Positions 4,405 through 26,202 of a DNA stretch of 64,000 nucleotides are shown here, one piece after another. The notes beneath the pieces are model-generated. The model searched no databases. It was not told the DNA's origin and saw only the letters and a program-made list of their open reading frames with translations. The translations under genes and the position numbers were made by a program. The DNA is from Caulobacter sp. (GTDB lineage: Bacteria; Pseudomonadota; Alphaproteobacteria; Caulobacterales; Caulobacteraceae), in contig JAQGIP010000032.1 of the NCBI GenBank assembly GCA_028291055.1, positions 124,001 to 188,000 of the forward strand, given 5' to 3'. Each line of letters starts with the position of its first letter. Positions within the stretch are counted from its first letter, which is position 1.

Positions 4405-4418
4405 TGACAGCGCTGTCG
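4405..4418. promoter_or_regulatory. LacI-type operator upstream of GH87 gene
   Basis: TGACAGCGCTGTCG differs from a perfect 14-bp palindrome only at its last base. It ends 14 bases before the GH87 ATG, a position where a bound repressor would block initiation. It is one of six near-identical sites in the 4.4-24.8 kb region. Confidence 0.75.
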
Positions 4419-9180: not shown

Positions 9181-10718
9181 GCGCCCACCTCCACGCGGGC
9201 CGGCGGCGCCGTCACGGCGCTGGGCGAAGGGCAGTAGTCGCGCACGAAGTCGTCGTGGCTGGGCATGGCGTCCACGCGGGTCTGGATACGCCCGCGCAGT
9301 TCCTCCATCCGCCCGATCAGGTCGGTGAACTCCATATTGTCGGCCAGCCGCTCATAGCCGTCCGGCACGACCCCCTGCCCGACCAGCACCGCCAGCCAGC
9401 TGGACGGCGCGAACAGGCCGTCCTTGTAGGCTTCGATGTGGCCGCGATGCTTGAAAATCTTCAGCTTGTGCTTGAGGCTGTCGGGCACCTCCATGTTGCG
9501 GGTGTAGCGCCAGAGCTCGGAATCATCGCGGCTGTTGGCGTGGTAGTGCAGGATCAGGAAGTCGCGCACCCGGTCGTATTCGACGTCCACCAGCCGGTTG
9601 AATTCGGCGGCCAGAACCGGGTCGAACGGAACGCGCGGAAACAGCCGGATCAGGTTCATCACCGCCACCTGCACCAGATAGATGCTGGTGGACTCCAGCG
9701 GCTCCAGGAAGCCGCTGGCCAGGCCGATGCCGATACAGTTCTTGAACCAGCTGTGCGTGCGCCGTCCGGCCTTGAAGCGCAGCATGCGCGGATCGGCCTG
9801 GGCCTTGCCGTCCAGGTTGGCCAGCAGGGTGGCGTGGGCCTCGTCCTCGCTGATGAAGCTTGAGGAGAAGCAGTAGCCGTTGCCCGTGCGGTGCTGCAGC
9901 GGGATGCGCCACTGCCAGCCGCCCTCGCGCGCCGTGGAGCGGGTATAGGGGTGGAAGTCCTCCGAGCGTTCGCAGGGCACGGCCCAGGCCCGGTCGCAGG
10001 GCAGCCATTTGCTCCAGTCCTCGAACGGAACCTCCAGCGTCTGGCCCATCAGCAGCGAGCGGAAGCCCGAGCAGTCGATGAACAGGTCGCCGGCGACGAC
10101 CTCCCCGGACTTCAGCGTCACCGAGGCGACGTTGCCGCTCTCGCCGTCCCGCGTCACGTCCACCACCATGCCTTCGGTGCGCACCACCCCGCGCGCCTCG
10201 GCGAAGCCGCGCAGGTATTTGGAATAGAGGTGGGCGTCGAACTGGTAGGCGTAGCTATAGGTGGCGTTGATGACCTTGGGGTCCTTGGCCGGGAACTCGA
10301 AGCGGTTGGTCCGGCAGGCCACGATCGGATAGCTGAAATCGTCCAGGTCGAAGGCGTGGCCGTTCTGGCGCGCCTTCACCCAGTGATGGTGGAAGGCCAC
10401 CCCCGACAGCGGCTGGCCGTGCTTGCCGAAGGGGTGGTTGTAGCGGCTGCCCTTGAAGCCCCAGTCGCGGAAGTCGATGCCCAGTTTGAAGGTGGCGTTG
10501 GAGGCCGCCATCATCTCCGGCTCGATGATGCCGATGGCCTCGTTGAAGTCGCGCATCTGCGGCAGCGTGGCCTCGCCCACGCCGACGATGCCGATCTCGT
10601 CGGATTCGATCAGCCGCACGCGGCAGATATTGGGCTTCAGCACGCCCACCAGGGCGGCGGCGCTCATCCAGCCGGAGGTGCCCCCTCCCACGATGACGAC
10701 GTCCAGCGGCTTGGCCAT
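9177..10718 (-). CDS. Tryptophan 7-halogenase-like flavoprotein (copy 3, canonical motifs)
   Basis: A 513-residue flavin-dependent halogenase-like protein with all motifs intact: GGGTSGW for FAD, catalytic K78 in NATFKLGIDFRDW, the WQWRIP signature in place of WxWxIP, and EPLESTS. It would need reduced flavin from a separate reductase, none of which is encoded nearby. It is first in the three-gene set and lies 353 bp behind the TonB receptor gene on the same strand. The start has GGAG eight bases upstream. Context points to a role in carbohydrate acquisition and not in antibiotic synthesis; this is inference. Confidence 0.88.
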   Translation of the reverse strand: MAKPLDVVIVGGGTSGWMSAAALVGVLKPNICRVRLIESDEIGIVGVGEATLPQMRDFNEAIGIIEPEMMAASNATFKLGIDFRDWGFKGSRYNHPFGKHGQPLSGVAFHHHWVKARQNGHAFDLDDFSYPIVACRTNRFEFPAKDPKVINATYSYAYQFDAHLYSKYLRGFAEARGVVRTEGMVVDVTRDGESGNVASVTLKSGEVVAGDLFIDCSGFRSLLMGQTLEVPFEDWSKWLPCDRAWAVPCERSEDFHPYTRSTAREGGWQWRIPLQHRTGNGYCFSSSFISEDEAHATLLANLDGKAQADPRMLRFKAGRRTHSWFKNCIGIGLASGFLEPLESTSIYLVQVAVMNLIRLFPRVPFDPVLAAEFNRLVDVEYDRVRDFLILHYHANSRDDSELWRYTRNMEVPDSLKHKLKIFKHRGHIEAYKDGLFAPSSWLAVLVGQGVVPDGYERLADNMEFTDLIGRMEELRGRIQTRVDAMPSHDDFVRDYCPSPSAVTAPPARVEVGA

Positions 10719-11071: not shown

Positions 11072-14000
11072 TCAGTATTTCATCCGGATCCCGAAGACGA
11101 TCCGGCGATCGTTCTGGAACCAGCTGCCGGGGCGAAGATTGCCGCCGCCGATGTTGGAGTCCGTGGTCTGTTGCAGCAGGATCGTGCGGGTGTTCAGCAG
11201 GTTGCTGCCCTGCAGGCTCAGCTCGACATTGTCGCTGACCCGGAAGCGGATCGACCCGTCGAGGAAGCCGGCCTCCTTCTGCCACATGGGCAGATAGATG
11301 CAGCAGTCGACCGCCGTCACCAGGAACTGCGAGCGCCAGTTGTAGGCCAGGCGAAGCGCCCAGGGGCCCTTCTCGTACATACCCACCAGGTTGTAGGAGG
11401 TCTTCGACAGCCCCTCCAGCGCATCGACCTGCAGCGCGGTGCCGTTGGTGCCCGGCTGGGGTGTGGCCCCAGACGCGCTGCCCGACGCGGTCTTCAGGTT
11501 GGCGTTGGTGATGCCGGTGTTGTCGACATAGGTGAAGTTGGCCTGCACCCCCAGCCCGCTCCAGGCCCCCGGCAGGAAGTCGAAGAAGCGCTGGTAGGCC
11601 ACTTCGAAGCCCTTGAGGCTGGCGCCGTCGCCGTTCATCGGCCCGCGGACCTGCACCGAACGGGTCACCCCGTTGGCGGTGACGTCGCGGTTGTAGAAGC
11701 CGTATTGGATGTAGTCCTCGAACTTCTTGTAGAACAGCGCGATCGAGAAGCTGCCCACGTCGCTGAAGTAGTATTCCAGCGAGATGTCGAACTGGTCGGC
11801 CGTGGTCGGCTTCAGGCTCGGGTTATAGCCGTCCGCCGTATAGGTCGGGTTGACCCCCGTCACCACGCCGCCCGTCTTGATGTAGCGCGGGTCGGAGATG
11901 TCCTGGGGCCCGGGGAAGGAGGTGGAGATGTTGATGTAGTTCTTCAGCAGCCCGATGTCGGGCCGCGACATGGCGCGCGACGCGGCGAAGCGCAGCACCC
12001 ACTGGTCGTTCAGGTCGAGCTTCAGGTTGAAGCTGGGCAGCCAGTTGCGATGGGTGGTGTCCACCGTGCTGCTGGCGCCGCCGCCCTGGTTGAAGGCGAT
12101 GTCCTGGGCCGACAGGTAGCAGCCGACGGTGCCCGGAATAGCGGGCGCGGGCGCCGGCGGCACGGTCGGAATGGGCGTGCAGGCCAGGGTCGAGGGCGAG
12201 AAGGGCGTCGGATAGGCCACCGAACCGGTGCTCGAGTCCTTGGTCTCGACGTAGCGGACGCCGACGTTGCCCGAAACCCGGATGCTGCCCCAGGTCGCTT
12301 CGGGGCCGCCGAACTTCAGCATCGCGTAGATGGCCTTGGTCTTCTCCTCCACGTGGTTCACTTCCACGGGCAGGTAGCAGCCTTCCGTCTCCCCGGTCCG
12401 CGTGCAGATCGGGTGCCACTGGTCCTGGCCCACGCCCAGGTTGGCGTAGCTCAGCGCGTCGGCGCCGTGCGCCGCCAGCTTGTCCATGTTGAAGAAGACG
12501 AAGTCGCGCGCCGCGCCGCCGAAGAAGTCGCCGCCGCCGAACGAGCGCACGTCATACAGCCCCTGCGGATAGCCGGTGAAGGCGCCGTTGGCCGTGTGCT
12601 TGTCGATGTTCCAGAAGACGTTCTGGTGCGCGCTCAGGTTCCAGTCGTTGGCGATATTGGCCCAGTTGAAGGTCGAATAGCGCACCGTCTGATCGCGGTC
12701 GGAGTAGCGCACCCCCACCTTCAGGCTGTCCATCCAGGTCGAGTGGAACAGGTACTGGGCGTCGGCGCGGATCGCGAACTCGTCACCCTCGCTGTTCTCG
12801 CGATGGTCCATCGCGTGGTTGTAACGGTAGTTGTCCGGATTGCTCAGGCCGCCCGGCGACTGGTTGATATTGGTCGGCGTCAGCAGCGTCATGCGCGGCA
12901 GGTCGCCGGTGGCGTCCAGCTTCAGGTCGGCGAAGGAATACTGGCCGACTTCGATGTCATAGTTCTCGACCGTGGAGTGGACCTTCTGGATGTCGGCGTT
13001 GAGCTTCCAGTTGTCGTTGGGGTTCCATTTGAGATTGATGGCCCCGTCTTCGGTCATGTTTTCGTTGTGGTTGTAGCGGGTGACCGCATTCACGTCCGGC
13101 CCGCGCCCGTCGATGGCGCAGGTGCCCTGCCAGACGTAACAGGGATGCAGCATCGACTGGCCGCTGGAGTTCAGCGCGATGTCGGCGGAGTCCGCGTCGG
13201 AGGCGCCCCACCAGCCGTTGTCCGTCTGCACGACGGTCATCACGCCGGTCTGGAAGTTGCCCTGCTGGTCGAAGGTGAAGGCGGGCGTGCCCAGGGCCGG
13301 TCGCGGCGCGGCCTGCGGCGTGGCGCCGGCGCCGTAGACGAAGCGCACGTCCTTGGCGAACATGTCGATGGGGTAGCTGATGACCCCATTTTCCTTCCAG
13401 GTGTTCTCATAGGTGGAGCGGTTGTACTGGCCGGTGACCAGCAGCTTGCCGCTCGGGTCCTGCCACTGGGCGGAGAAGGCCATGCCGTTGCGGACCCGGT
13501 CATAGGTCGTCACGCGCTGCGCCACGCTGGAAGGGATGTACTTCAGGCCCGGGCCATAGAGGCCGTCGAGCACGGCCATGCGGCCGTACTGGATGCCCTG
13601 CGACTGGGTCTCGACTTCCGAATAGGCCAGGTTGCCCATCAGGCCCACGTCGCCGAAGGGGGTTTCCCAACGGTCGCTGAGGATCATCGAGCCTTCGGGG
13701 GTGAACTTCTTCGACAGGTCGCCGTAGTTGCCGTTGATCCCCACCGAGAACAGGTGGCCGGAGCTGTCGAACGGCACCCGCGTGCGCAGGTTGACCGTGC
13801 CGGCGATGCCGCCCTCGATCAGTTCCGCCGTCTGGTTCTTGTAGGTGTCGACCCCGGCCATCAGCTCGGGCGAGACGTCGCCCCAGCCCAGGCCGCGCGA
13901 GGAGTTGGCGCTGAAGGTGTCGCGGCCGTTGAATTCGTTGCGGACCTGCGACAGGCCCCGCACCAGCACGCCGGAGGGTTCAGCCGAGAAGTGGGAGGTG

Positions 14001-14329
14001 TCGTCGCTGGCCGCCAGGCGGTTGACGGTGATGCCGGGCACCCGTTGCAGGGCCTCGGCGATGGACTTGTCGGGGAAGGCGCCGATGTCCGTGGCGGTGA
14101 TGGTGTCGACCACCGTGTCGGAGCTGCGCTTCAATTGCTGGGAGGTCTTCAGCGAGGCGCGGACCCCGGTGACCACCACTTCGTCGACGGCCGTGTTGTC
14201 GTTCGGCGCGTCGTCCCTGGCCAGGGCCAGCGACGGGGTCAGGGCCATCGTGGCGCCCGTCAGCACCAGCACCGAAGCGCCGTACCTCAGCGCCCGGCGC
14301 CACGACATCTTGTCAGCCGACATATTCAT
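11072..14329 (-). CDS. TonB-dependent receptor, large Caulobacter/Xanthomonas type
   Basis: A 1085-residue outer-membrane receptor that would import glucan oligosaccharides using TonB energy. It has a signal peptide (VLTGATMALTPSLALA), a TonB box region DEVVVTGVRASL, a plug domain (IAEALQRVPGITVNR, GVLVRGLSQVRNEFNGR, IAGTVNLRTR) and a beta-barrel ending in the aromatic terminus GIRMKY. This is the architecture of the TonB-Xanth-Caul group. GGGAGGG precedes the ATG at 14329. A LacI-type operator lies about 150 bp upstream. It is followed, after a hairpin, by three halogenase-like genes. The 1227-aa plus-strand ORF across it is a codon-bias shadow. Confidence 0.93.
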   Translation of the reverse strand: MNMSADKMSWRRALRYGASVLVLTGATMALTPSLALARDDAPNDNTAVDEVVVTGVRASLKTSQQLKRSSDTVVDTITATDIGAFPDKSIAEALQRVPGITVNRLAASDDTSHFSAEPSGVLVRGLSQVRNEFNGRDTFSANSSRGLGWGDVSPELMAGVDTYKNQTAELIEGGIAGTVNLRTRVPFDSSGHLFSVGINGNYGDLSKKFTPEGSMILSDRWETPFGDVGLMGNLAYSEVETQSQGIQYGRMAVLDGLYGPGLKYIPSSVAQRVTTYDRVRNGMAFSAQWQDPSGKLLVTGQYNRSTYENTWKENGVISYPIDMFAKDVRFVYGAGATPQAAPRPALGTPAFTFDQQGNFQTGVMTVVQTDNGWWGASDADSADIALNSSGQSMLHPCYVWQGTCAIDGRGPDVNAVTRYNHNENMTEDGAINLKWNPNDNWKLNADIQKVHSTVENYDIEVGQYSFADLKLDATGDLPRMTLLTPTNINQSPGGLSNPDNYRYNHAMDHRENSEGDEFAIRADAQYLFHSTWMDSLKVGVRYSDRDQTVRYSTFNWANIANDWNLSAHQNVFWNIDKHTANGAFTGYPQGLYDVRSFGGGDFFGGAARDFVFFNMDKLAAHGADALSYANLGVGQDQWHPICTRTGETEGCYLPVEVNHVEEKTKAIYAMLKFGGPEATWGSIRVSGNVGVRYVETKDSSTGSVAYPTPFSPSTLACTPIPTVPPAPAPAIPGTVGCYLSAQDIAFNQGGGASSTVDTTHRNWLPSFNLKLDLNDQWVLRFAASRAMSRPDIGLLKNYINISTSFPGPQDISDPRYIKTGGVVTGVNPTYTADGYNPSLKPTTADQFDISLEYYFSDVGSFSIALFYKKFEDYIQYGFYNRDVTANGVTRSVQVRGPMNGDGASLKGFEVAYQRFFDFLPGAWSGLGVQANFTYVDNTGITNANLKTASGSASGATPQPGTNGTALQVDALEGLSKTSYNLVGMYEKGPWALRLAYNWRSQFLVTAVDCCIYLPMWQKEAGFLDGSIRFRVSDNVELSLQGSNLLNTRTILLQQTTDSNIGGGNLRPGSWFQNDRRIVFGIRMKY

Positions 14330-14763
14330 CCAACTTCCCTCCCAGAAGGGCGGCGCTTCTCGGACGCCGGCCCCAACGTGTTGTTTCCCCCTCGGGCGCC
14401 CGCTCTAGTGGCGGCCACCTCCGGTAGTATCGGCCGGATCATCTGAAGGTCCGCCGCCCTTGGGGGAGGCCTTCAAACTTTCCGACAGCGCTGTCATTTC
14501 GGGTCAGAAAAAAAGGGGACGCCTTTGCGTCACTGCCCCTTAACCCCTGGCCCTCCCCTTCGAGCTTTGAAACATTAGTACGGACGAGTCTCCGATCCCG
14601 CCAGCCCCTTTCGACGGATCAGGGAAAGAATCTTCACCCCGACAGGAACGCCGTGTCATTTTCGACACTAGTTTGTCACTCCGCCCCTTTGATCCAGACG
14701 ATGCTATGTTATCGGACTTCCGGCGCATAGTTGTTCTCCTCCCTCTGGGGCCCAGTGCTGCTG
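14330..14763. other. Divergent control region between TonB receptor and cupin-8 gene
   Basis: 434 bp with no gene. It contains the LacI-type operator at 14483-14496. Nearer the cupin gene are additional TGTC/GACA dyads: GTGTCattttcGACAC at 14653-14668 and GACActagttTGTC at 14664-14677, sharing one arm. These might be sites for another regulator or mutually exclusive foldings; they differ from the LacI consensus. Confidence 0.5.
14483..14496. promoter_or_regulatory. LacI-type operator upstream of TonB receptor
   Basis: CGACAGCGCTGTCA contains the perfect 12-bp palindrome GACAGCGCTGTC and matches the GH87 site read on the other strand. It sits 154 bp before the receptor start and 268 bp before the cupin gene, so it may act on both. 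Confidence 0.75.
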
Positions 14764-15783
14764 ATGACAGAACCGATGACGCCCATCCGCGAGTGGACCA
14801 ACGTAACGCCCCAGGTATTCCACGACCAAATCCTGCCTGTGGGACAACCGGCGGTATTCAAGAGTTTTGTTGCAGACTGGCCCGTGGTGGCGGCCGCGCG
14901 CCAGTCGCCGGCCGCGCTCAGCGCCTATCTGAAGCGTTTCGACAGGGGCGCCAGCGTGCCGACCTTGCTGGGCCCGCCGAAAATCAACGGCCGCTTCTTC
15001 TACAACCATGACATGAGCGGGTTCAATTTCCAGCAGGGCAGCGCACGCATCGGCGCGGCCCTGGACTTCCTGCTGGCGCGGCTCGACGAAGAGCCGCCGC
15101 CCGCCTTCGCCATCCAGTCCGCGCCCATCCGGGGCTGCATGCCGGGATTCGAGGCCGAAAACCGGCTGACGCTGCTGGACCCGGCCATCGAGCCCCGCGC
15201 CTGGATCGGCAACCGGGTGATCGTCGCCGCCCATCACGACCAGTCCGAGAACATCGCCTGCGTCGTCGCCGGCCGACGCCGCTTCACCCTCTTCCCGCCC
15301 GACCAGGTGGCCAACCTCTACATGGGCCCCTTCGAACTGACCCCCGCCGGGGCCACCATCAGCATGGTCGACTTCGACGCCCCCGACCTGGGCCGCTACC
15401 CCAACTTCCCCCAGGCCCTGGACGCCGCCGTGGTCGCCGACCTCGAGCCCGGCGATGCGATCTACATCCCCTATCTGTGGTGGCACCACGTCCGCTCGAT
15501 GGACCGCCTCAACATGCTGGTGAACTACTGGTGGGCTCCGAGGGCCCCCGGCCGCCCTGAACCGAGAGAAGCCTTCGTCCACGCCATCGTGGCCTTGCGC
15601 GACCTGCCCAAGGCCCACCGCGAAGCCTGGCGCGCCATGCTGGCCCACTACGTCTTCCAGGATGAAGGCCCCGCCCCCGGCGCCCACCTGCCCAAATCCA
15701 GCCAGGGCATCCTCGGCGACCTCGATCCCCAACTGCTGCGCGAGATCAGAACCTCCCTCGCCCGCTCGCTAGGGAGGTCGTAA
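14764..15783 (+). CDS. Cupin-8 / JmjC-like putative Fe(II)/2-oxoglutarate oxygenase
   Basis: A 339-residue cupin-like protein of the Cupin_8 (Pass1-related) family. The double-stranded beta-helix region shows the metal-binding HxD (HHDQSENIACVV) followed by GRRRFTLFPP and a distal histidine in PYLWWHHV; together these form the 2-His-1-carboxylate iron site of hydroxylases. The N-terminal WTNVTPQVFHDQIL and PAVFKSFVADWP are typical of the family. The track start (TTG 14731) is not supported; ATG 14764 or 14776 is likely. The gene is divergent from the receptor and typical of TonB-receptor sugar loci with halogenases, where its target is unknown. Confidence 0.83.
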   Translation: MTEPMTPIREWTNVTPQVFHDQILPVGQPAVFKSFVADWPVVAAARQSPAALSAYLKRFDRGASVPTLLGPPKINGRFFYNHDMSGFNFQQGSARIGAALDFLLARLDEEPPPAFAIQSAPIRGCMPGFEAENRLTLLDPAIEPRAWIGNRVIVAAHHDQSENIACVVAGRRRFTLFPPDQVANLYMGPFELTPAGATISMVDFDAPDLGRYPNFPQALDAAVVADLEPGDAIYIPYLWWHHVRSMDRLNMLVNYWWAPRAPGRPEPREAFVHAIVALRDLPKAHREAWRAMLAHYVFQDEGPAPGAHLPKSSQGILGDLDPQLLREIRTSLARSLGRS

Positions 15784-16119
15784 TGGGGCGGTCCTCCCCA
15801 GGCGAGCCTGCAGCGAGCCGGTTGGGGAGGTGGTCCGACGGACCGGAGGGGTTTACCGACTCCCCGACTAGCCACGTTCTGGCGCAACCGCCCAACGACG
15901 GCACAAATCCCCACCGCCAAAACACGCCCACCCTTAGGCCCAGTAAACCCCTCCCTCCCTTCGGGAGGACCTCCCCGGCCGGGCCGCTTGGGCGGCCCTG
16001 GGGAGGCGACGCGCGGATCCCCGTTACCCACCCACCGCATTGACACCCGCCGTCCAAGCCTGCGTATTTCGCGCGAACTCGCGGCGCCCGATCACTCGGC
16101 ACATGCCCCTGGAGCCCTC
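15784..16119. other. Intergenic region with inverted repeat before GH97 gene
   Basis: 336 bp between the cupin-8 stop and the GH97 start. Its main feature is a long imperfect inverted repeat (see 15845-15954) made of GGGGAGG-rich blocks. The small track ORFs here are repeat-driven shadows. No LacI operator is present, so GH97 is either read through from the cupin gene or has an unseen promoter. Confidence 0.5.
15845..15954. repeat. Inverted repeat, arms GGAGGGGTTTAC / GTAAACCCCTCC
   Basis: Perfect 12-base arms lie at 15845-15856 and 15943-15954. The similarity continues outward imperfectly through GGGGAGGT blocks for roughly 30 bases per arm, enclosing an 86-base centre. This could fold as one long cruciform or RNA hairpin, or be a decayed mobile repeat unit of the kind found between alphaproteobacterial genes. 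Confidence 0.6.
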
Positions 16120-18183
16120 ATGAAATCCTGGATTATCGCCCTCGGCGCCGCCTCGGCCCTGACCGTCATGGCCGGCGGCCAGGCCCTCGCCGCCCCCGCC
16201 AAACCCAATCGGGCCGATTCTAATCGGGAATGCGTCGACTCACCCGGCCATGTGCTGACCATCTGCGTGGCCGCCGACGCCAAGGGGGCCTTCTACGAGG
16301 TCAGCCGCGGCAAGCGCAAAGTCATCGCCCGCTCGGCCCTCGGCCTGGTGCTCAAGGGCGATGGTCCCGCCCGCGCCGACCACATCACCGGCGCGGCGCG
16401 CGCCACCGCCGACGCCACCTGGGAGCAGCCCTGGGGCGAGCAGCACTTCATCCGCGACCACCATAACGAACTGCGTGTCCACCTGGCCGGGGCCAAGGGC
16501 GTGCGGCCCTACGACGTGGTGGTGCGCGCCTTCGATGACGGCTTCGGCTTCCGCTACGACGTGCGCGCCATCGGTTCCAAGACGCCCATCGTCATCACCA
16601 ACGAGCTGACCGAGTTCCGCTTCGTCGGCCACTATGACGCCTGGTGGTACGCCGCCCGCGAAAAGGAGCGCGACGAGTACCTCTATCACCGCTCGCCGCT
16701 GAACGACGTGGGCCTGGCCGAGACCCCCTTCACCATCCAGGGCGACGGCCTCTACCTGTCGGTCCACGAGGCCGCGCTGGTCGACTATTCCAGCATGAAT
16801 TTGCGGCGGGTCGCTGACAACGCTGTCAAGGCGGACCTGATGCCCTGGTCCGACGGCGCGCTGGTCAAGCGCACCGGCCCCTTCGTCACGCCCTGGCGCA
16901 CGGTGACCATCGGCGACCATGCCGGCGCCCTGGCCGACAGCCGCATCATCCTGAACCTCAACGAGCCGTCGAAGCTGAAGGACGTCTCCTACTTCAAGCC
17001 CAACAAATACATCGGCATCTGGTGGGAGATGCACCTCAACCGCTCCACCTGGGGCAGCGGCCCGACCCACGGCGCCAACAACGCCAACGTCCGAAAATAC
17101 ATAGACTTCGCCGCCAAATATCACTTCAGCGGCGTGCTGGTGGAGGGCTGGAACACCGGCTGGGACGGCGACTGGACCGCCAATGGCGACAGGTTCAACT
17201 TCACCCAGTCGGCCCCCGATTTCGACCTGCCGGCCCTGGCCAAATACGCCCAGTCCAAGGGGGTCAATCTGATCGGCCACAACGAGACCGGCGGCGCGGC
17301 CGAGAACTACGACAACCAGCTCGACGCGGCCATGAGCCTCTATGAGGCCAACGGCATCCATGCGGTGAAGACCGGCTATGTGAAGCCCAACGGGACCATC
17401 ATCCGCACCGGCGAGGACGGTAAGCCCCAGAGCGAATGGTTCGCCGGCCAGTACATGGTCCGCCACCACGCCCATGTGGGCCAGGTCGCCGCCGCCCACC
17501 GCATCGCCGTCGACGCCCATGAGCCGGTGAAGGACACCGGCCTGCGCCGCACCTGGCCCAACCTGGTCAGCCGCGAAGGCGCCCGGGGCCAGGAGTTCAA
17601 CGCCTGGGGCCGGCCGACCAACCCGCCCGAGCACCTGTCGATCCTGCCCTTCACCCGCCTGCTGGGCGGGCCGATGGACTTCACCCCCGGCATCTTCGAC
17701 CTGACCTTCGGCCACACCAAGGTGGAGGAGCGGGTGCAGTCGACCCTCGCCGTCCAGCTGGCCGAATATGTGGTCATCTACAGCCCCGTGCAGATGGCCG
17801 CCGACCTGCCGGAGAACTACGAGGCCAAGCGCGACGCCTTCCAGTTCATCCTCGACGTCCCCACCGACTGGGAAACCTCAAAGACCCTGGCCGGCGAGAT
17901 CGGCGACTATGTCGTCGTGGCCCGCAAACAGCGCGGCGGCGCCGACTGGTTCCTGGGCGCCATCACCGACGAGCACGCCCGCTCCGTGCCTATCTCGCTC
18001 AGCTTCCTCGACCCCAAGAAACACTACGAAGCCCAGATCTACCGCGACGGCCCCGGCGCCGACTACCTGACCAACCCCTACCCCCTGGTCATCGAAAAGC
18101 GCTTCGTCACCGCCCGTGACAAGCTGACCCTCGACCTCGCCCCCGGCGGCGGCCAGGCCATCCGCTTCAAGGCCCTCGACTAA
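16120..18183 (+). CDS. GH97 alpha-glucosidase, SusB-like inverting type
   Basis: A 687-residue secreted glycoside hydrolase family 97 enzyme that would release glucose from alpha-linked glucan oligosaccharides in the periplasm. A signal peptide (ALTVMAGGQALAAP) is followed by an N-terminal beta-sandwich, the TIM barrel (VLVEGWNTGWDGDW, VKTGYV) and MDFTPGIFD. Three glutamates match the SusB calcium/catalytic set: E389 in HNETGG, E468 in DAHEPVK and E492 in GARGQEF, the last two 24 apart as in SusB. I therefore place it in the inverting branch. The ATG at 16120 has GGAG five bases upstream; the track start at 15988 lies in the repeat. The coding sequence contains a perfect LacI-operator match at 16815. 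Confidence 0.9.
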   Translation: MKSWIIALGAASALTVMAGGQALAAPAKPNRADSNRECVDSPGHVLTICVAADAKGAFYEVSRGKRKVIARSALGLVLKGDGPARADHITGAARATADATWEQPWGEQHFIRDHHNELRVHLAGAKGVRPYDVVVRAFDDGFGFRYDVRAIGSKTPIVITNELTEFRFVGHYDAWWYAAREKERDEYLYHRSPLNDVGLAETPFTIQGDGLYLSVHEAALVDYSSMNLRRVADNAVKADLMPWSDGALVKRTGPFVTPWRTVTIGDHAGALADSRIILNLNEPSKLKDVSYFKPNKYIGIWWEMHLNRSTWGSGPTHGANNANVRKYIDFAAKYHFSGVLVEGWNTGWDGDWTANGDRFNFTQSAPDFDLPALAKYAQSKGVNLIGHNETGGAAENYDNQLDAAMSLYEANGIHAVKTGYVKPNGTIIRTGEDGKPQSEWFAGQYMVRHHAHVGQVAAAHRIAVDAHEPVKDTGLRRTWPNLVSREGARGQEFNAWGRPTNPPEHLSILPFTRLLGGPMDFTPGIFDLTFGHTKVEERVQSTLAVQLAEYVVIYSPVQMAADLPENYEAKRDAFQFILDVPTDWETSKTLAGEIGDYVVVARKQRGGADWFLGAITDEHARSVPISLSFLDPKKHYEAQIYRDGPGADYLTNPYPLVIEKRFVTARDKLTLDLAPGGGQAIRFKALD
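16815..16828. promoter_or_regulatory. LacI-type operator inside the GH97 coding sequence
   Basis: TGACAACGCTGTCA, identical to the sites at 18245 and 23627, occurs within codons for Ala-Asp-Asn-Ala-Val. An exact 14-base match arising by chance in one gene is improbable. It could serve as an auxiliary operator for looping or as a roadblock. Confidence 0.55.
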
Positions 18184-18190
18184 CGTTACC

Positions 18191-18219
18191 GGGGAGGCCG
18201 CGCCCCCGCGCGCCTCCCC
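18191..18219 (+). terminator. Hairpin after GH97 gene
   Basis: GGGGAGG at 18191-18197 pairs with CCTCCCC at 18213-18219, with an inner CGCG/CGCG extension. There is no U-tract, so it is either a factor-assisted terminator or an mRNA end stabiliser. Confidence 0.5.
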
Positions 18220-18236
18220 GCCCCCTGCATCCGCCC

Positions 18237-18266
18237 TTGCCAATTGACAACGCTGTCAATTATACC
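18237..18266 (+). promoter_or_regulatory. Probable GH3 promoter with embedded LacI operator (18245-18258)
   Basis: TGACAACGCTGTCA, extended to AATTGACAACGCTGTCAATT, is the best-conserved operator copy. Candidate promoter elements flank it: TTGCCA at 18237-18242 and TATACC at 18261-18266, 18 bases apart. The operator would then sit in the spacer, where repressor binding excludes RNA polymerase. The promoter assignment is inference. Confidence 0.7.
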
Positions 18267-18304
18267 TGTCCCAAGGCGGCCGAAGAGCCCCTTGGGAGGC
18301 TGCG

Positions 18305-20761
18305 ATGATCAAAAGTAAACCAGCAAATCTACTCTTCGGCCTGACCCTCCTGGCCCTGGCCCCCATGGTGCAGGCCGCGACCGCCCAGCCTGGCCTCGCC
18401 CACCCCGAGTCCTGGCCCGCCGCCCACAGCCCCGGCTTGATCGACCCCAAGACCGAAGCCTTCGTCACCGACCTGATGTCGAAGATGTCGGTCGAGGAAA
18501 AAGTCGGCCAGATGATCCAGGGCGACCTCTCCAACATCAAGCCGGAGGACCTGCGCGACTATCCGCTGGGCTCCGTCCTGGCCGGCGGCGACAGCCCGCC
18601 CGTCGGCCAGCCCGACCGCTCTGGCGCGCAAGCCTGGCTCGACACCGCCCGCGCCTTCCGCTCCGTCTCCGTGGAGGCGCGGCCGGGCCATACGCCGATC
18701 CCGGTGATGTTCGGGGTCGATGCGGTGCACGGCAACAACAACGTGGTCGGCGCCACCCTGATGCCCCACAACATCGGCCTGGGCGCCATGAACGACCCCG
18801 CCCTGATGCGCCGCATCGGCGAGGTCACGGGTGAGGAAACCGCCGCGACCGGCATCGACTGGGCCTTCGGTCCGACCCTGGCCGTGGTCCGCGACGACCG
18901 CTGGGGCCGCACCTACGAGGGCTATTCGGAGGAACCCCGGATCGTCGCCGCCTATGCCGGCCAGATGATCGGCGGGCTGCAGAGCGGCCGTGTCTCCGCC
19001 TCGGCCAAGCACTTCCTGGGCGACGGCGGCACCGACGGCGGCAAGGACCAGGGCGACAACCGCTATTCCGAGGCCGACCTGATCCGCCTCAACGCGCCGG
19101 GCTATGTGTCGGCCGTGAATGCCGGGACCATGACCATCATGGCCTCCTTCTCCTCCTGGCAGGGGGTGAAGATGCACGGCAACCGGAGCCTGCTGACCGG
19201 TGTGCTGAAGGGCAAAATGGGCTTCGACGGCTTCGTGGTCGGCGACTGGAACGCCCAGGGCCAGGTGCCCGGCTGCACCAACGAAAGCTGCCCCCAGGCC
19301 TTCATCGCCGGGGTCGACATGATCATGGCCGCCGACAGCTGGAAGGGCCTCTACAGGAACACCCTGGCCCAGGTCCGCTCCGGCGAGATCCCCATGGCTC
19401 GGGTCGACGACGCGGTGCGCCGCATCCTGCGGGTGAAGGTCAAGTCCGGCCTGTTCGGCCCGCGCCCCTGGGAGGGCCAGTTCGCCGCCATCGGCTCGCC
19501 CGCCCACCGTGCCATCGCCCGCCAGGCGGTGCGCGAGTCGCTGGTGCTGCTGAAGAACGACGGCGGCGTGTTGCCGATCCGGGGCGGGGCCCGCGTGCTG
19601 GTGGCCGGCGACGGAGCCGACAACGTCGCCAAACAGGCCGGCGGCTGGACGCTGAGTTGGCAGGGCACGGGCAACATGCCCGCCGACTTCCCGGGCGCCA
19701 CCTCCATCTGGTCGGGCATCCGCGATGCCGTGACGAAGGGCGGCGGCAAGGCTGAACTCAGCCCGGACGGGCGCTTCAAGACCAAACCCGACGTGGCCAT
19801 CGTGGTGTTCGGCGAGACCCCCTATGCGGAGTTCCAGGGCGACATCGCGACCCTGGAATACCAGCCCGGCGCCAAGGCCGACCTGGCCCTGCTGAAGTCG
19901 CTGAAGGCCAAGGGCATTCCGGTGGTGGCGGTCTTCCTGTCGGGGCGGCCCCTATGGGTGAACCCGGAGATCAACGCCTCGGACGCCTTCGTCGCCGCTT
20001 GGCTGCCGGGCAGCGAGGGGGCCGGGGTGGCCGACCTGCTGATCGGCGACGCCAAGGGCAAGGCCCGCCACGACTTCCGCGGCAGGCTCTCCTACAGCTG
20101 GCCCCGCACCGCCAACCAATTCCGCCTGAACCTCGGCGAGCCGGGCTACAATCCGCTGTTCCCGTACGGCTACGGCCTGACCTACCGCGACCACAAGCTG
20201 CTGCCGCGCCTCTCGGAAGTGTCCGGCGTCGCCGCCGCCTCGGCCCCCTCCGACCAGTATCTGATGGCCGGCAAGCCGGTCGCGCCCTGGAAGCTGATCC
20301 TGTCCGACGACGGCGGCGCGGCCACAACCGACACGGCCAGCCCGCGCGGTGCGCTCAGCGTCTCCCTGGTCGACGCCGACGGCCTGCAGGGCGGGGCCAG
20401 GGCCTTCACCTGGAGCGGCGCCGGCCGCGCGGCATGGACCATAGGCGGCCCGCCGGTCGACCTCACCCGCCAGGCCAACGGCGACATGGCGCTGCTGATC
20501 CGCTACCGCCTCGACGCGGCCCCCACGGGGCCGGTGCGGATGATGATCGGCAAGGGCGAAGCCTCCCTTGATGGCGTCCTGAAGGGCGCGCCCGTCGGCC
20601 AGTGGCGCACCGTGAAGATCAAGCTGTCGTGCCTGCGCGGCGCGGGCGAAGACCTGTCGGCGGTGGCCGCGCCCGTATCCATCGCCACCTCCGGTCGGCT
20701 AAGCCTGTCCGTCGCCGAACTTCGGCTGGTCAGCAACCAACACGACGCGATCTGCCCTTGA
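18305..20761 (+). CDS. GH3 beta-glucosidase / exo-1,4-beta-glucan glucohydrolase, ExoP type
   Basis: An 818-residue secreted GH3 enzyme that removes glucose from the non-reducing ends of beta-glucans or cello-oligosaccharides. A signal peptide (LLFGLTLLALAPMVQAATA) precedes the (beta/alpha)8 domain with PVMFGVDAVHGNNNV, SAKHFLGDGGTDGG and the nucleophile aspartate near residue 315 in FVVGDWNAQG. An alpha/beta sandwich domain (ESLVLLKNDGGVLPI, YPYGYGLTY at its end) and a C-terminal ExoP galactose-binding-like domain follow. GGGAGG lies five bases before ATG 18305. It is followed after 25 bases by an MFS carrier, so the two form an operon under the 18245 operator. Confidence 0.92.
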   Translation: MIKSKPANLLFGLTLLALAPMVQAATAQPGLAHPESWPAAHSPGLIDPKTEAFVTDLMSKMSVEEKVGQMIQGDLSNIKPEDLRDYPLGSVLAGGDSPPVGQPDRSGAQAWLDTARAFRSVSVEARPGHTPIPVMFGVDAVHGNNNVVGATLMPHNIGLGAMNDPALMRRIGEVTGEETAATGIDWAFGPTLAVVRDDRWGRTYEGYSEEPRIVAAYAGQMIGGLQSGRVSASAKHFLGDGGTDGGKDQGDNRYSEADLIRLNAPGYVSAVNAGTMTIMASFSSWQGVKMHGNRSLLTGVLKGKMGFDGFVVGDWNAQGQVPGCTNESCPQAFIAGVDMIMAADSWKGLYRNTLAQVRSGEIPMARVDDAVRRILRVKVKSGLFGPRPWEGQFAAIGSPAHRAIARQAVRESLVLLKNDGGVLPIRGGARVLVAGDGADNVAKQAGGWTLSWQGTGNMPADFPGATSIWSGIRDAVTKGGGKAELSPDGRFKTKPDVAIVVFGETPYAEFQGDIATLEYQPGAKADLALLKSLKAKGIPVVAVFLSGRPLWVNPEINASDAFVAAWLPGSEGAGVADLLIGDAKGKARHDFRGRLSYSWPRTANQFRLNLGEPGYNPLFPYGYGLTYRDHKLLPRLSEVSGVAAASAPSDQYLMAGKPVAPWKLILSDDGGAATTDTASPRGALSVSLVDADGLQGGARAFTWSGAGRAAWTIGGPPVDLTRQANGDMALLIRYRLDAAPTGPVRMMIGKGEASLDGVLKGAPVGQWRTVKIKLSCLRGAGEDLSAVAAPVSIATSGRLSLSVAELRLVSNQHDAICP

Positions 20762-20786
20762 GGGGCGTGGAAATCTGCCGGGGGGC

Positions 20787-22358
20787 ATGATGGGTAAATT
20801 CCTGATCGAGCGGAACAAGCTGGCCGCCTTCTGGCTCGGCTGCGCCGCGGTCACGGCCGGGGTGCTGCTGCACCTGCCGATGTTCCTGATGGCCCGCGAC
20901 ATGGGTTACCAACTGGCCGGCATGGAGATGGACAACGGCATGCTGGCCGGCATGGGCCTGATCGTGCTGGGCATCGCGCTGACCGCCTACGGCCTGCTGC
21001 CGTCCGCCGCCATCCGCCACAACGACCCGCACCTGAAGATGAGTCCGTCGGAGGAGGCGCCCCTCACCTCGGCCCACTGGCAGCTCATGGCCGTGCTGGT
21101 GGTGGCCCTGGTGGTGGACGTGATGAAGCCGGCCAGCCTGGGCTTCGTGGTGCCGGGCATGCGCGCGGAATACGGAGTCTCCAAGGCCTTCGTGGCCTGG
21201 CTTCCGTTCACCGCCCTGTTGGGCACCTTCGTGGGCTCCATCGTCTGGGGCGTCCTGGCCGACATCTACGGGCGGCGCGCCTCGATCCTGCTGTCGGCCA
21301 TCATGTTCGTGGGCACCTCAATCTGCGGGGCCATGCCATCGTTCAACTGGAACGTCATCATGTGCTTCCTGATGGGCGCCGCGGCGGGCGGGCTGCTGCC
21401 GGTGGCCTATGCCCTGCTGGCCGAGGCCATGCCGTCCAAACACCGCGGCTGGAGCCTGGTCATGGTCGGCGGCCTGGGCGCGGCGGGCGGCTATCTGGCG
21501 GCCAGTTCGCTGTCGGCGGTGCTGCAGCCGCTGTTCGGCTGGCGCATCATGTGGTTCCTCAACATGCCCACCGGCCTGCTGCTGATCGCCATGAGCGGCA
21601 TCATCCCCGAGTCCGCCAAGTTCCTCATGCAGAGCGGCCGGGTGGCCGAGGCTCGGGCCATCCTCAAGCGCTTCGGCTCGGTGCTGGTCCCTGTGACCGA
21701 AGCGACGATCGCCCGCGCCGCCATCGAAACGACCGGCGCCCACGTGGCCCGCAAGAGCGTCATCCTCTCCATCGTCGGCGTGACCTGGAGCCTGATCAAC
21801 TTCGGCATCCTGCTGTGGCTGCCCGCCGACCTGGTGGCCAAGGGCGCCAGCATCGGGCTGACCAGCAAGCTGCTGGCCCAGTCGGCCCTCATCGCCCTGC
21901 CCGCCGTGCTGCTGGCGGCGCTGCTCTACAGCCGCTGGAGCACCAAGGGTGCGCTGGCCGCCATGATGACGGTGTCGGGCCTGGGCCTGCTGGGGCTGAT
22001 CTTGATGGATACGCCCATCGCCGGCGTCACCCTGGGCCCGGTCCTTCCCGTGGCCCTGCTGATCTTCGGCAGCAACGGCATGCTGGCGGTGCTGCTGCCC
22101 TATACCGCCGAGCTGTTCCCGCTGCGGGTGCGCGGGCGCGCCACCGGCCTGGTGGCCGGCTGCACCAAGTTCGGAGGCCTGATCGCCCAGGGCCTGGGCC
22201 TGCTGGCCCTGATCCCCGCGCTCAGCGTCGCCGCCTGGAGCGTGGTCGCCCTGCTGGCCGTCTGCGTGGCCCTGATCAGCCTCTATGGCGAGGAGACGCG
22301 TGGGCGCGACCTGCGCGACATCGACGGCGAGCCGCTCGGCCTGCCCGCCGAGGCCTAA
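20787..22358 (+). CDS. MFS transporter, metabolite:H+ symporter type
   Basis: A 523-residue inner-membrane carrier of the major facilitator superfamily with 12 core membrane helices and two additional N-terminal ones (residues about 12-35 and 50-72). The loop 2-3 motif is ADIYGRRASILL, and PESAKFLMQSGRVAEA is typical of sugar or organic acid porters. GGGGG precedes a double ATG start. It follows GH3 by 25 bp and probably imports glucose or a short glucoside. The stop overlaps the stop of the convergent GH5 gene by two bases. The solute is inferred only from context. Confidence 0.8.
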   Translation: MMGKFLIERNKLAAFWLGCAAVTAGVLLHLPMFLMARDMGYQLAGMEMDNGMLAGMGLIVLGIALTAYGLLPSAAIRHNDPHLKMSPSEEAPLTSAHWQLMAVLVVALVVDVMKPASLGFVVPGMRAEYGVSKAFVAWLPFTALLGTFVGSIVWGVLADIYGRRASILLSAIMFVGTSICGAMPSFNWNVIMCFLMGAAAGGLLPVAYALLAEAMPSKHRGWSLVMVGGLGAAGGYLAASSLSAVLQPLFGWRIMWFLNMPTGLLLIAMSGIIPESAKFLMQSGRVAEARAILKRFGSVLVPVTEATIARAAIETTGAHVARKSVILSIVGVTWSLINFGILLWLPADLVAKGASIGLTSKLLAQSALIALPAVLLAALLYSRWSTKGALAAMMTVSGLGLLGLILMDTPIAGVTLGPVLPVALLIFGSNGMLAVLLPYTAELFPLRVRGRATGLVAGCTKFGGLIAQGLGLLALIPALSVAAWSVVALLAVCVALISLYGEETRGRDLRDIDGEPLGLPAEA

Positions 22359-23422
22359 GGAACCAGCGCCTTGCGGATCGGCTCGACCCACTGGCCCTTG
22401 TCGATGTCGTAGGCCACGAAGTCGCTGTCGAACTGCCAGTAGGCCCAGGCCCAGCCGCGCGCCTCCGCCCCGCGCGCGGCGGCGGCGGTGTAGCGGGCGC
22501 GGTAGACCATCTCGCCCTTGTCGTAGGCCCCGAATTCGCCGAGCAGGATCGGGCGCTTATGCTGGCGCGCCCACAGATCGACGCGGTTGAAGTCGGCGTC
22601 CATGCGGGCCAGGTCCGCCGCGCTGCCCCACTGCACCCCGGACATATGGGCCGTGGCTTCGTTCCAGCTGGCGCCCTGGTGGGTGAATTCCATGGGCGTG
22701 TAGTAGTGGAAGGTGACGATCAGGTGGTGATCGTCCGCCGGCAGATAGAGGTATTGCAGGTCGTCCAGGCTGTTCCAGTGGGCGGGACCGACGATCACAT
22801 TGCGGGTCGGGTTACTGGCCCGCACCACCGCCAGGGCGTCATGCATCAGCCCGTTCCAGAGGTTGGCGGTCAGCCCGCTGTTGGGCTCGTTGAGCAGCTC
22901 GAACACCACGGTGTTGGGGGTGTCGCGGTAGCGCTCCGCCACCTGCTTCCAGAAGGCCAGCAGGCGGGGCCGGCAGGCGCCCGGGTCCTTGCCGCAGTCG
23001 TTGAAATTGTGCTCGTCGAGGATGACGGTCAGGCCGGCCTTGGAGGCGGTGTCGACGATCCAGTCGAGGCGCTTCAGCCAGGCGGGATCCAGGCGGTGGT
23101 CCGCATCCATGTGGGAGAAGGCTTCCAGGTTCACGCGGACCGTATCGAAGCCGCCCTGGCGGATGATGGTGAAATGGGACGCCTGAAAGCGGGGCGCGCC
23201 GCCCTTCCAGGCCGGGTCGTAGCCCAGGACGTTGATGCCGCGCTTCATGGCGTCGACCTGGACGAAGGGATCGATGGGCGCAAAGCCCGTGGGGAAGGCC
23301 CGGGCCGGCGCGTCGGCGGCGAGCGCGCGCCCTGCCCCGCCCGATCCAACCAGGGCCAGGGCGCCGGCGGCGGCCATCAGGCCCAGCCGGAGCGCCGAAC
23401 GGCGCGAACCTTTGATGGTCAT
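22355..23422 (-). CDS. GH5 endo-beta-glucanase (cellulase family), secreted
   Basis: A 355-residue GH5 enzyme that would cleave internal beta-glucosidic bonds. A Tat-like signal (SRRSALRLGLMAAAGALALVG) precedes a TIM barrel with GFDTVRVNLEAF, the acid/base Glu in VVFELLNEPN (near residue 176), IVTFHYYTP and the nucleophile Glu in LLGEFGAYD (near residue 295). The start at 23422 is preceded by GGGAGGG; the track ORF begins far upstream inside the lacI-type gene and is wrong. It is divergent from the regulator gene, and the operator at 23627 lies 205 bp upstream of its start. The beta specificity contrasts with the GH87/GH97 pair in the same locus. Confidence 0.88.
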   Translation of the reverse strand: MTIKGSRRSALRLGLMAAAGALALVGSGGAGRALAADAPARAFPTGFAPIDPFVQVDAMKRGINVLGYDPAWKGGAPRFQASHFTIIRQGGFDTVRVNLEAFSHMDADHRLDPAWLKRLDWIVDTASKAGLTVILDEHNFNDCGKDPGACRPRLLAFWKQVAERYRDTPNTVVFELLNEPNSGLTANLWNGLMHDALAVVRASNPTRNVIVGPAHWNSLDDLQYLYLPADDHHLIVTFHYYTPMEFTHQGASWNEATAHMSGVQWGSAADLARMDADFNRVDLWARQHKRPILLGEFGAYDKGEMVYRARYTAAAARGAEARGWAWAYWQFDSDFVAYDIDKGQWVEPIRKALVP

Positions 23423-23728
23423 GGCAACCCTCCCGAACGGCCCTCTCAAACGGGGCCTCGCCAAAAAGAAGGGCGGCCGAAGCCGCCCCCTCAGTGCCCG
23501 CTCGCAAGGACGGCGGGAATGCGCATGCCACGGACCGGGAAGCAGGAGGAGAGGCGCTTCCAAGGGCAAGAACGGCCCGCGACATCGCCACCAGAACCCA
23601 ACGGCCGGGCAGACGCAAGCGAAAATTGACAACGCTGTCATACAAGCGGGACGATTTGCGCCTAGGCTGCGGCTGCCCGTTGCGGTGAAGCGGCTGGGCG
23701 GATACTCCGGAGAGGCGAACTTTGCGCC
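23423..23728. other. Divergent control region between GH5 and lacI-type gene
   Basis: 306 bp without a gene. The only clear element is the operator at 23627-23640. Base composition is lower in GC just around the operator (GAAAATTGACAAC), as expected for a promoter area. Confidence 0.5.
23627..23640. promoter_or_regulatory. LacI-type operator at the regulator gene
   Basis: TGACAACGCTGTCA, identical to the GH3 operator. It lies 88 bp before the TTG start of the LacI regulator and would give autoregulation; it may also control the divergent GH5 gene. Confidence 0.75.
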
Positions 23729-24763
23729 TTGCGACAGCGGACTGACCACTTGGCTTCGATCACCATCGACGATGTCGCCGACCTGGCGGGTGTTTCCATC
23801 AAGACCGTGTCGCGGGTGCTGAACCGCGAGCCCCATGTGAGGGCCGCGACGCGCGAGAAGGTGCTGGCGGCGGTCGAGCAGTTGAACTACCGGCCCAATG
23901 TCTCGGCCCGGGCCCTGGCGGGGTCGCGCTCCTATCTGCTGGGCCTGTTCTTCGACAACCCCAGTCCCGGCTACAACGGCCAGATCGAACAGGGCGCCAT
24001 GAGCGCCTGCCGCAACTCCGGCTACTATCTGATCGTCGAGCAGATGACCGAGATCGGCGACGATCTGCAAAAGCGCATCGCGGCCTTCCACGCCACGGTG
24101 CGGCTGGACGGGGTGATCCTGCCCCCTCCCCTGTGCGACAGGCCGGAACTGCTGGCCGCCCTGGACGCCGACCGCATCCCCTATGTGCGAATCGCCCCGA
24201 CCATCAGCCTGGAACGGGCGCCCTACGTCTACATGGACGACCGCAAGGCCGCCTATGAGATGACGGCCTATCTCCAGAGCCTGGGCCACAAGGATATCGC
24301 CTTCATCGCCGGCCCCTCCGACCACTATGCCGCCGCGCGGCGCCGGGAAGGATTCGACCAGGCCATGCGCGACGCGGGCCTGGCGGTGAAGCCGGGGCGG
24401 GTGCAGCAGGGCGCCTTCTCCTTCCGCTCGGGGTCGGAATGCGGGGAGAAGCTGCTGGATACCCGCGACCGGCCCACGGCCATCTTCGCCGGCAACGACG
24501 ACATGGCGCTGGGGGTGATGGCGGTGGCCAACCGGCTGCACATCGACGTGCCCGGCACGGTGACCCTGGCGGGGTTCGATGATTCGCCCAGCGCCCAGGT
24601 GGTGTGGCCGCAGTTGACCACCGTGCGCCAGCCGGTGGCCGACATGGCCCAGGTGGCGACGGAGCTGCTGATCAACGCCGACCGTGACGACGACATGCCC
24701 CGCGCGCGGCTGATGGATTTCGAAGTGATGGTCCGCCAGTCATCGGGGCCCCCATCGCGGTGA
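23729..24763 (+). CDS. LacI-family transcriptional regulator of the glucan locus
   Basis: A 344-residue LacI/GalR repressor. The N-terminal headpiece reads ITIDDVADLAGVSIKTVSRVLN followed by the hinge YRPNVSARALAGSRS; the rest is a periplasmic-binding-protein-like effector domain (GLFFDNPSPGYNGQIEQG, FIAGPSDHYAAARRREGF, AIFAGNDDMALGVM, TTVRQPVADMA). It has no ATG or GTG at a plausible place; the TTG at 23729, with GGAGAGG 13 bases upstream, is used, and a second TTG at 23750 is possible. Six operator-like palindromes from 4405 to 24804 are the likely targets. A glucose-type effector is expected from the genes controlled, but is not shown. Confidence 0.88.
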   Translation: MRQRTDHLASITIDDVADLAGVSIKTVSRVLNREPHVRAATREKVLAAVEQLNYRPNVSARALAGSRSYLLGLFFDNPSPGYNGQIEQGAMSACRNSGYYLIVEQMTEIGDDLQKRIAAFHATVRLDGVILPPPLCDRPELLAALDADRIPYVRIAPTISLERAPYVYMDDRKAAYEMTAYLQSLGHKDIAFIAGPSDHYAAARRREGFDQAMRDAGLAVKPGRVQQGAFSFRSGSECGEKLLDTRDRPTAIFAGNDDMALGVMAVANRLHIDVPGTVTLAGFDDSPSAQVVWPQLTTVRQPVADMAQVATELLINADRDDDMPRARLMDFEVMVRQSSGPPSR

Positions 24764-24790
24764 TCGTCGGCGTCGCGGCCGATGGCCATT

Positions 24791-24804
24791 TGACAGCGCT
24801 GTCT
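24791..24804. promoter_or_regulatory. LacI-type operator upstream of gluP-glk
   Basis: TGACAGCGCTGTCT lies 66 bases before the transporter start and matches the family consensus at 13 of 14 positions. It is just after the regulator stop codon. Confidence 0.75.
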
Positions 24805-24870
24805 TTTCGTCCTTAGGGTTCCGCAAAACCCGCACGCCGGTTGATGACGCGGGAAGCATCGAGGAAACAC

Positions 24871-26202
24871 ATGGCCCAGCCCGGTCCAGCGCCCACCTTC
24901 GCGCCCGACGCCAAGCAAACTTCCGCCGCCGGCGCCGCCACCGGCGTGCTGGTGGTCTTCGTGGTGGCCCTGTTCTTCGCCTGGGGCTTCGCCACGGTGA
25001 TGATCGACACCCTGATCCCGAAGCTCAAGGGGCTGTTCGCGCTCAGCTACGCCCAGGTGATGCTGACCCAGTTCGCCTTCTTCATCGCCTATTTCATCTT
25101 CTCCATCCCGGCCGGCATCCTGCTGTCGCGGATCGGCTACCTGCGCGGCATCGTGGTGGGACTGGTGGTCATGGCCGCGGGTTGCCTGATGTTCTCCCCT
25201 GCGGCGTCGGCGGGGGTCTATTGGGGCTTCCTGGTCGCCCTGTTCGTGATGGCGGCGGGGGTCACCACCCTGCAGGTGGCGGCCAATCCGCTGATCGCCA
25301 TCATCGGCAAGCCGGGGGCCTCGGCCTTCCGGCTGAACCTGGCCCAGACCTTCAATTCGCTGGGCACCTTCATCGGCCCCTTCGTGGGCGCGGCGATCAT
25401 CCTGAAGGGCGGGGTGACGCCCCCCGATCCCGCCAAGACGGCGCCGGACGTGATGGCCGTCTACCGGGTCACCGAGGCCCATGCGGTGCAGGCGCCCTTC
25501 CTGGGCATCGCCGCCGGCCTCGTGCTGCTGGGCGTGATCTTCTGGTTCCTGCGCAAGAGCGCCGGCGTGCCGACCCCGGCCAAGAATGAAACGAGCTTCG
25601 CCAGCTTCGCCCTGCTGGCCCGCCCCCGCTTGGCGTTCGGCGCGTTGTGCATCTTCCTCTATGTCGGCGCCGAGGTCTCCATCGGCAGCCTGATGGTCAA
25701 CTACCTGTCTCAGCCGCACGTGTTGGCCATCAGCGTTCAGGCGGCCGGCAAGCTGGTCGCCTTCTACTGGGGCGGGGCCATGGTGGGCCGGCTGATCGGC
25801 TCGCTGCTGCTCTATCTGAAGGCGCCGGCCGCACGGTTGCTCAGCCTCTGTGCGCTGGGGGCAATCGCCCTGGTCGTGCTGTCGTCGATGACCTCCGGCT
25901 CGGTGGCCGGCTATGCGATCATCGCGGTGGGCCTGGTCAATTCCATCATGTTCCCCACCATCTTCACCCTGGGCATCGAGGGCATGGGCGACAAGACGCC
26001 CCAGGCGTCCAGCCTGCTGTGCATGGCCATCGTCGGCGGGGCTATCATTCCGCTGATCACCGGCAAGGCGGCCGACATGGTCGGGTTGGGCCTGGCCCTG
26101 CTGGTCCCGGCGGCCTGCTACCTGGTGATCGCCGCCTATGGCCTGTATGCGCATTCGCGCAAGCTGACCGACGAAAACGCCCCGGTGGCGGTGGCTCCGT
26201 GA
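24871..26202 (+). CDS. gluP: Glucose/galactose MFS transporter, FucP/GluP family
   Basis: A 443-residue sugar:H+ symporter of the fucose permease/GluP group. It shows LFFAWGFATVMIDTLIPKLK in helix 1, the family-typical LQVAANPLIAIIGKPGASAFRLN and TFNSLGTFIGPFVG, and NSIMFPTIFTLGIEGMG near the C-terminus. GAGGAA lies four bases before ATG 24871; the track start at 24841 has none. The stop overlaps the glucokinase start, so imported glucose is phosphorylated by a co-translated enzyme. The operator at 24791 puts both under the LacI regulator. Confidence 0.9.
   Translation: MAQPGPAPTFAPDAKQTSAAGAATGVLVVFVVALFFAWGFATVMIDTLIPKLKGLFALSYAQVMLTQFAFFIAYFIFSIPAGILLSRIGYLRGIVVGLVVMAAGCLMFSPAASAGVYWGFLVALFVMAAGVTTLQVAANPLIAIIGKPGASAFRLNLAQTFNSLGTFIGPFVGAAIILKGGVTPPDPAKTAPDVMAVYRVTEAHAVQAPFLGIAAGLVLLGVIFWFLRKSAGVPTPAKNETSFASFALLARPRLAFGALCIFLYVGAEVSIGSLMVNYLSQPHVLAISVQAAGKLVAFYWGGAMVGRLIGSLLLYLKAPAARLLSLCALGAIALVVLSSMTSGSVAGYAIIAVGLVNSIMFPTIFTLGIEGMGDKTPQASSLLCMAIVGGAIIPLITGKAADMVGLGLALLVPAACYLVIAAYGLYAHSRKLTDENAPVAVAP

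Follow-up and report, generated by a model that had tools for sequence, protein, structure and literature searches.

A glucan-utilization cluster with a perfect operator copy inside GH97

The window analysed here, a 64,000-nucleotide stretch of a draft Caulobacter genome, contains a glucan-utilization cluster that comprises an alpha-1,3-glucanase-like gene, three tryptophan-halogenase-like genes, genes for a TonB-dependent receptor, a cupin_8 protein, GH97, GH3, an MFS protein, GH5, a LacI-family regulator, a FucP-like transporter and glucokinase, and Entner–Doudoroff genes (names without Pfam support were read from the translations). The glucanase-like gene, which has CatAgl domains, adjoins the three consecutive halogenase-like genes and the receptor gene (window 4433-10718), an order conserved in Caulobacter sp. 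RYN_457 (hereafter G014) and Caulobacter sp. 17J80-11.

A word search of the window located the palindrome TGACAACGCTGTCA with 0 mismatches at 16815-16828, 18245 and 23627, and palindromic variants with one mismatch at 4405, 14483 and 24791 (Table 1). Five of these six cluster sites are intergenic, and the sole in-gene site is the one at 16815. It starts at base +696 of GH97, 695 bp past the first base of the ATG at 16120, and lies 1430 bp from the GH3 operator. The preliminary description, which placed a perfect operator copy within the GH97 coding sequence about 700 bp into the gene and 1.43 kb before the GH3 operator, is thus borne out. The site is read in frame as GC[T GAC AAC GCT GTC A]AG, which encodes A232-D-N-A-V-K. 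Identity among the exact copies is limited to 14-15 bp, and the A/T flanks of both promoter copies (GH3 and regulator) are absent around 16815. An origin of the internal site as a duplicate of the GH3 operator region was considered and rejected, because the identity stops at 14-15 bp.

Table 1 Positions in the window of the operator-like sites, genes and repeat discussed in the text
Feature	Position	Strand	Basis or detail
Intragenic operator-like palindrome TGACAACGCTGTCA	16815..16828	+	Exact match; GH97 codons 232-237
GH97 (alpha-glucosidase-like) gene, host of the internal site	16120..18183	+	Pfam PF10566, PF14508, PF14509
Operator identical to TGACAACGCTGTCA, 60 bp 5′ of GH3 start codon	18245..18258	+	Matrix score 32.5
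GH3 gene	18305..20761	+	PF00933, PF01915, PF18559
Operator identical to TGACAACGCTGTCA, between GH5 and regulator gene	23627..23640	+	Matrix score 31.3
LacI-family regulator, 337 aa, likely dimer	23750..24763	+	PF00356, PF13377; alignment to LacI, PurR and CcpA chains
Variant operator between TonB-dependent receptor gene (minus) and cupin gene (plus)	14483..14496	+	G014 counterpart at 27879
Variant operator 5′ of FucP-like transporter gene	24791..24804	+	G014 counterpart at 37722
Variant operator 5′ of alpha-1,3-glucanase-like gene	4405..4418	+	Sequence match, matrix scan
219-bp dispersed self-complementary repeat, cupin–GH97 gap	15788..16006	none	Matches on both strands, own genome

The presumed cognate regulator carries DNA-binding and sugar-binding domains (Pfam), lies beside sugar-utilization genes and has an autoregulatory-type site at 23627 ahead of its own gene, as is typical of BglR/GluR-type repressors; there are Caulobacter relatives that share 55-61% identity with it. 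The protein (337 aa) can be aligned with LacI over residues 2-329 and stops at about the place of residue 334 of E. coli LacI. The tetramerization tail of LacI, a helix, is formed by residues 340-360, and no counterpart of these residues was found in the alignment to the LacI chain. The regulator is therefore likely, as judged from its sequence, to be dimeric. Ravcheev et al. 2014 (PMC4052901) described the BglR1-3 and GluR regulons of Caulobacterales, whose LacI-family repressors control glucoside and central sugar genes through palindromic operators. The regulator studied here appears BglR/GluR-like in type, and its predicted regulon resembles the BglR/GluR group predicted for that order.

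The internal site exceeds chance expectation

Three exact copies of TGACAACGCTGTCA are present in the 4.99-Mb genome, all of them within the cluster. When up to one mismatch to TGACARCGYTGTCA was allowed, six of the seven places in the genome fell in the cluster and the seventh preceded zwf; the reversed control of this search gave 1 match. The only operator-like site outside the cluster (AGACAGCGCTGTCA; L205:4217-4230, on contig C50 of the same genome) stands before a zwf-pgl-edd-like operon, the place expected for the GluR regulator of PMC4052901, and two regulators, paralogous to each other, may recognise almost the same operator. Across 75 Caulobacter genomes the exact word occurs 64 times, compared with 1 match for the reversed control, and 59 of the 61 copies outside the source genome are intergenic (calls from a simple codon-usage gene caller and the G014 map). 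The word therefore behaves as an operator throughout Caulobacter.

An independent-codon model trained on the window genes predicts 3e-5 exact copies in the approximately 28 kb of cluster coding sequence. Given the real proteins and the codon usage of the window, the expected number rises to 4.6e-4, to which this GH97 position is the sole contributor. The same improbability appears in another form, and not as independent evidence, in the alanine codons of GH97, of which only 2 of 81 are GCT, both inside the site. The core matrix score at 16815 (24.2) equals that of the GH3 and regulator operators, whereas the 22-bp score is 17.3, compared with 31-32 at those two sites and 18.8 at the intergenic site at 4405. 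Its flanks score lowest among the exact copies compared (−4.3; others, −4.1 to 8.5) and thus resemble a promoter least.

These data bear on whether the word is simply a coincidence of codon choice, neither bound nor functional. Peptides containing DNAV do approach the word by default codons (RDNAVY at 27404, for example, comes within 3 mismatches), but the chance expectation is tiny, the core equals the strongest promoter sites and, as described below, ADNAV is missing from the GH97 orthologues and is thus not a requirement of the protein; we regard such a coincidence as highly improbable. That the internal site is a real operator copy, beyond what chance and protein requirement would give, is well supported by these sequence comparisons, and the repressor very probably binds it.

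The site is specific to one lineage and encodes a variable turn

At the site, the GH97 orthologues with 76, 73 and 66% identity have TGQNAFK, TGPGAFK and TGENQFK, and GxGAG(T/G)x predominates among those more distant. Both the DNA word and ADNAV are absent from all of roughly 50 aligned orthologues, and none of the GH97 orthologues in 390 genomes searched across the family exceeded 76% identity. The G014 counterpart, GGC CAG AAT GCT TTC A, differs at five bases within the 14-mer. Because the orthologues carry other residues here, the site is lineage-specific and unconserved. The preliminary description had considered that orthologues might keep ADNAV in different codons; instead, they lack ADNAV altogether. 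It had also looked to conservation among orthologues as a sign of function, and none is forthcoming, since no orthologue has the site. In a structure model (mean pLDDT 85.9), residues 226-240 form a strand–turn–strand with D233-N234 at the turn, and on this model the hairpin turn encoded by the site is a tolerant position. Whether private amino-acid changes are enriched at the site was also considered: two fall in residues 231-237, compared with 43 of 647 overall, and one of the two lies outside the operator, so the enrichment is not convincing.

The surroundings of GH97 differ from those in G014

The G014 cluster is syntenic with the window from the glucanase-like gene through glucokinase. 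Its regulator shares 80% identity over the full length, with an identical recognition-helix stretch (VSIKTVSRVLN), and its operators precede the TonB-dependent receptor, cupin, GH97, regulator and FucP genes. In G014, GH97 and GH3 are separated by an 11-bp gap without an operator (L031 17307-17317) and apparently form one operon, whereas in the window the gap is 121 bp (18184-18304), with a perfect operator between the two genes. It seems that this operon was split in the window lineage or fused in that of G014.

Upstream of GH97 in the window, a matrix scan found no operator above threshold, in agreement with the preliminary description of a gene without a visible upstream operator. A candidate relict of an ancestral GH97 operator at 16041 (TTGACACCCGCCGTCC, at −79; the G014 operator is at −78) was rejected as a half-site coincidence: the upstream alignment scored 35.4 (shuffles: mean 21.9, sd 6.9, maximum 43), and the matrix score was −19.9.

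The cupin–GH97 gap also holds the 219-bp repeat, which occurs at about 40 places in its own genome and only as 30-bp fragments in 40 relatives. Its predicted RNA fold has an energy of −120 kcal/mol (z = −3.4), and it is a MITE-like expansion, specific to this lineage and predicted to form a strong hairpin. An Rfam search of 14000-25000 gave no match.

Alternatively, the repressor may bind the site with hardly any consequence for transcription, the perfect match then being a rare, inert event in a hairpin loop that tolerates change. No orthologue shares the site, which is confined to one lineage; its flanks are poor, it codes for a hairpin turn with variable residues, and intragenic PhoB sites in E. 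coli, likewise unconserved matches to a regulator motif, are mostly transcriptionally inert (PMC10294691). However, those sites are many and degenerate, whereas GH97 holds a single perfect 14-mer that occurs nowhere in the genome but in the cognate cluster, where the probability of an exact copy by chance is about 1e-4, and it sits in the sole enzyme gene that lacks its promoter operator relative to G014. We consider inertness possible, if somewhat doubtful.

A possible transcriptional roadblock

In the reading that we prefer, and to which we give an even chance, the internal site is an intragenic operator that works as a transcriptional roadblock in the manner of PurR at purB. On this view the site serves the LacI-family repressor of the cluster as an operator and came into being within GH97 only recently. 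In the absence of the inducing sugar, a bound repressor dimer would halt RNA polymerase after about 0.7 kb of the gene, and little full-length GH97 mRNA would therefore be made despite the lack of an operator at the GH97 promoter; inducer would release the block. The block would also lower read-through from GH97 into GH3, and it would give back control to a gene with an operator-free promoter. We infer that the regulator binds, that bound repressor stalls the polymerase and that this affects fitness.

LacI halts elongating polymerase in vivo, and the extent of readthrough varies with the strength of the promoter, the affinity of the operator and Mfd (PMC4132739), and PurR is described as repressing purB by a roadblock from within the gene (He and Zalkin 1992, as cited in PMC4132739). 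A bound dimer suffices for such a block and the regulator looks dimeric, which fits a roadblock. The presence of a GH97 promoter operator in G014 and its absence in the window also argue for it; the poorest flanks, the lower 22-bp score, the absence of the site from every orthologue and the inertness of many in-gene sites of other regulators, such as PhoB (PMC10294691), argue against it. The GH97 promoter itself was not located.

The preliminary description had offered a looping aid as the other role. Repressors at 16815 and 18245 (or 14483) would then loop the DNA and tighten repression of GH3, as suggested by the two perfect sites 1430 bp apart and by the auxiliary operators of lac and gal. 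Lac-type looping over this long distance is nevertheless disfavoured, because the regulator lacks the C-terminal tetramerization helix, and no such pair of sites surrounds GH97–GH3 in G014. We therefore think looping unlikely; of the two roles, the roadblock fits the sequence evidence.

An internal promoter under operator control, reading towards GH3 or antisense, would be another role for the site, and the copies before GH3 and the regulator gene do contain the −35-like word TTGACA. The internal copy reads CTGACA, with no A/T-rich sequence 3′ of it, and no sigma-70-type or Caulobacter-type promoter scored above shuffle level at the site, which leaves an internal promoter very improbable.

A second in-gene site in the genus

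The other two intragenic exact copies in the genus (genomes G012 and G018) occupy identical codon positions in a single glucokinase-like gene. All nine Caulobacter orthologues (L208-L216; 75-79% identity to the G012 gene) keep AAT GAC AAC G(T/C)T (A/G)TC AT there, so that the words read TGACAACGTTATCA, TGACAACGTTGTCA or TGACAACGCTGTCA; one example is L225:6718-6731 (gene 6071-7063), and a more distant case is L229:7101. The site accounts for 7 of the 10 GTT codons and 9 of the 13 AAT codons of the nine genes together, and these rare GTT/GCT and AAT codons are kept while adjacent codons vary. No LacI gene was recognised, from N-terminal sequences inspected by eye, within about 5-7 kb on each side in four of these neighbourhoods. 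From this pattern, the glucokinase-like site is a candidate conserved intragenic LacI-family operator, and its existence makes coding-sequence operators in Caulobacter more plausible.

Relation to known intragenic operators

Intragenic LacI-family operators make up under 1% of catalogued sites, with lacZ and purB among them (PMC4052901). The search span of that survey, −400 to +100 bp around gene starts, would have missed the internal site, and coding-region sites of this family are rarely reported partly because searches end near the start codon.

In the manner of lacZ O2 and purB, the GH97 site has a word that matches, here exactly, the cognate promoter operators, a position inside the coding sequence of a regulon gene and an occurrence beyond chance and coding; conservation in orthologues, a usual although not strictly defining mark, is absent. 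By these sequence characters it would join the known rare class, as a member new to this lineage.

The likeness to the purB system consists of a LacI-family repressor without the LacI tail, a single operator well inside the coding sequence, no need for a promoter operator and a block to elongation, the last proposed here. The GH97 site differs in lying about 700 bp into the gene and in being absent from the closest relatives.

The lacO2 site of E. coli lacZ is likewise a LacI-family intragenic operator; it too lies within a glycosidase gene and has a stronger operator close by at a promoter. It acts by looping with a tetrameric repressor, whereas the regulator here lacks the C-terminal tetramerization that lac-type looping calls for and the GH97 promoter is without an operator.

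A wider scenario, which we offer tentatively and consider rather unlikely as a whole, is that GH97 passed from control at initiation to control at elongation in one lineage: the promoter operator, which G014 retains, was lost, the 219-bp repeat arrived, GH3 gained an operator, and amino-acid replacements in a tolerant hairpin loop produced the coding-sequence operator; we infer the order of these events. If true, the origin of an operator within a coding sequence would here be both recent and traceable. A perfect copy deep in the gene, with relatives that lack it, one of them with a promoter operator, offers a compact test of roadblock function. The same contrast is a test of operator relocation during regulon rewiring, with G014 as the comparison without an internal site.
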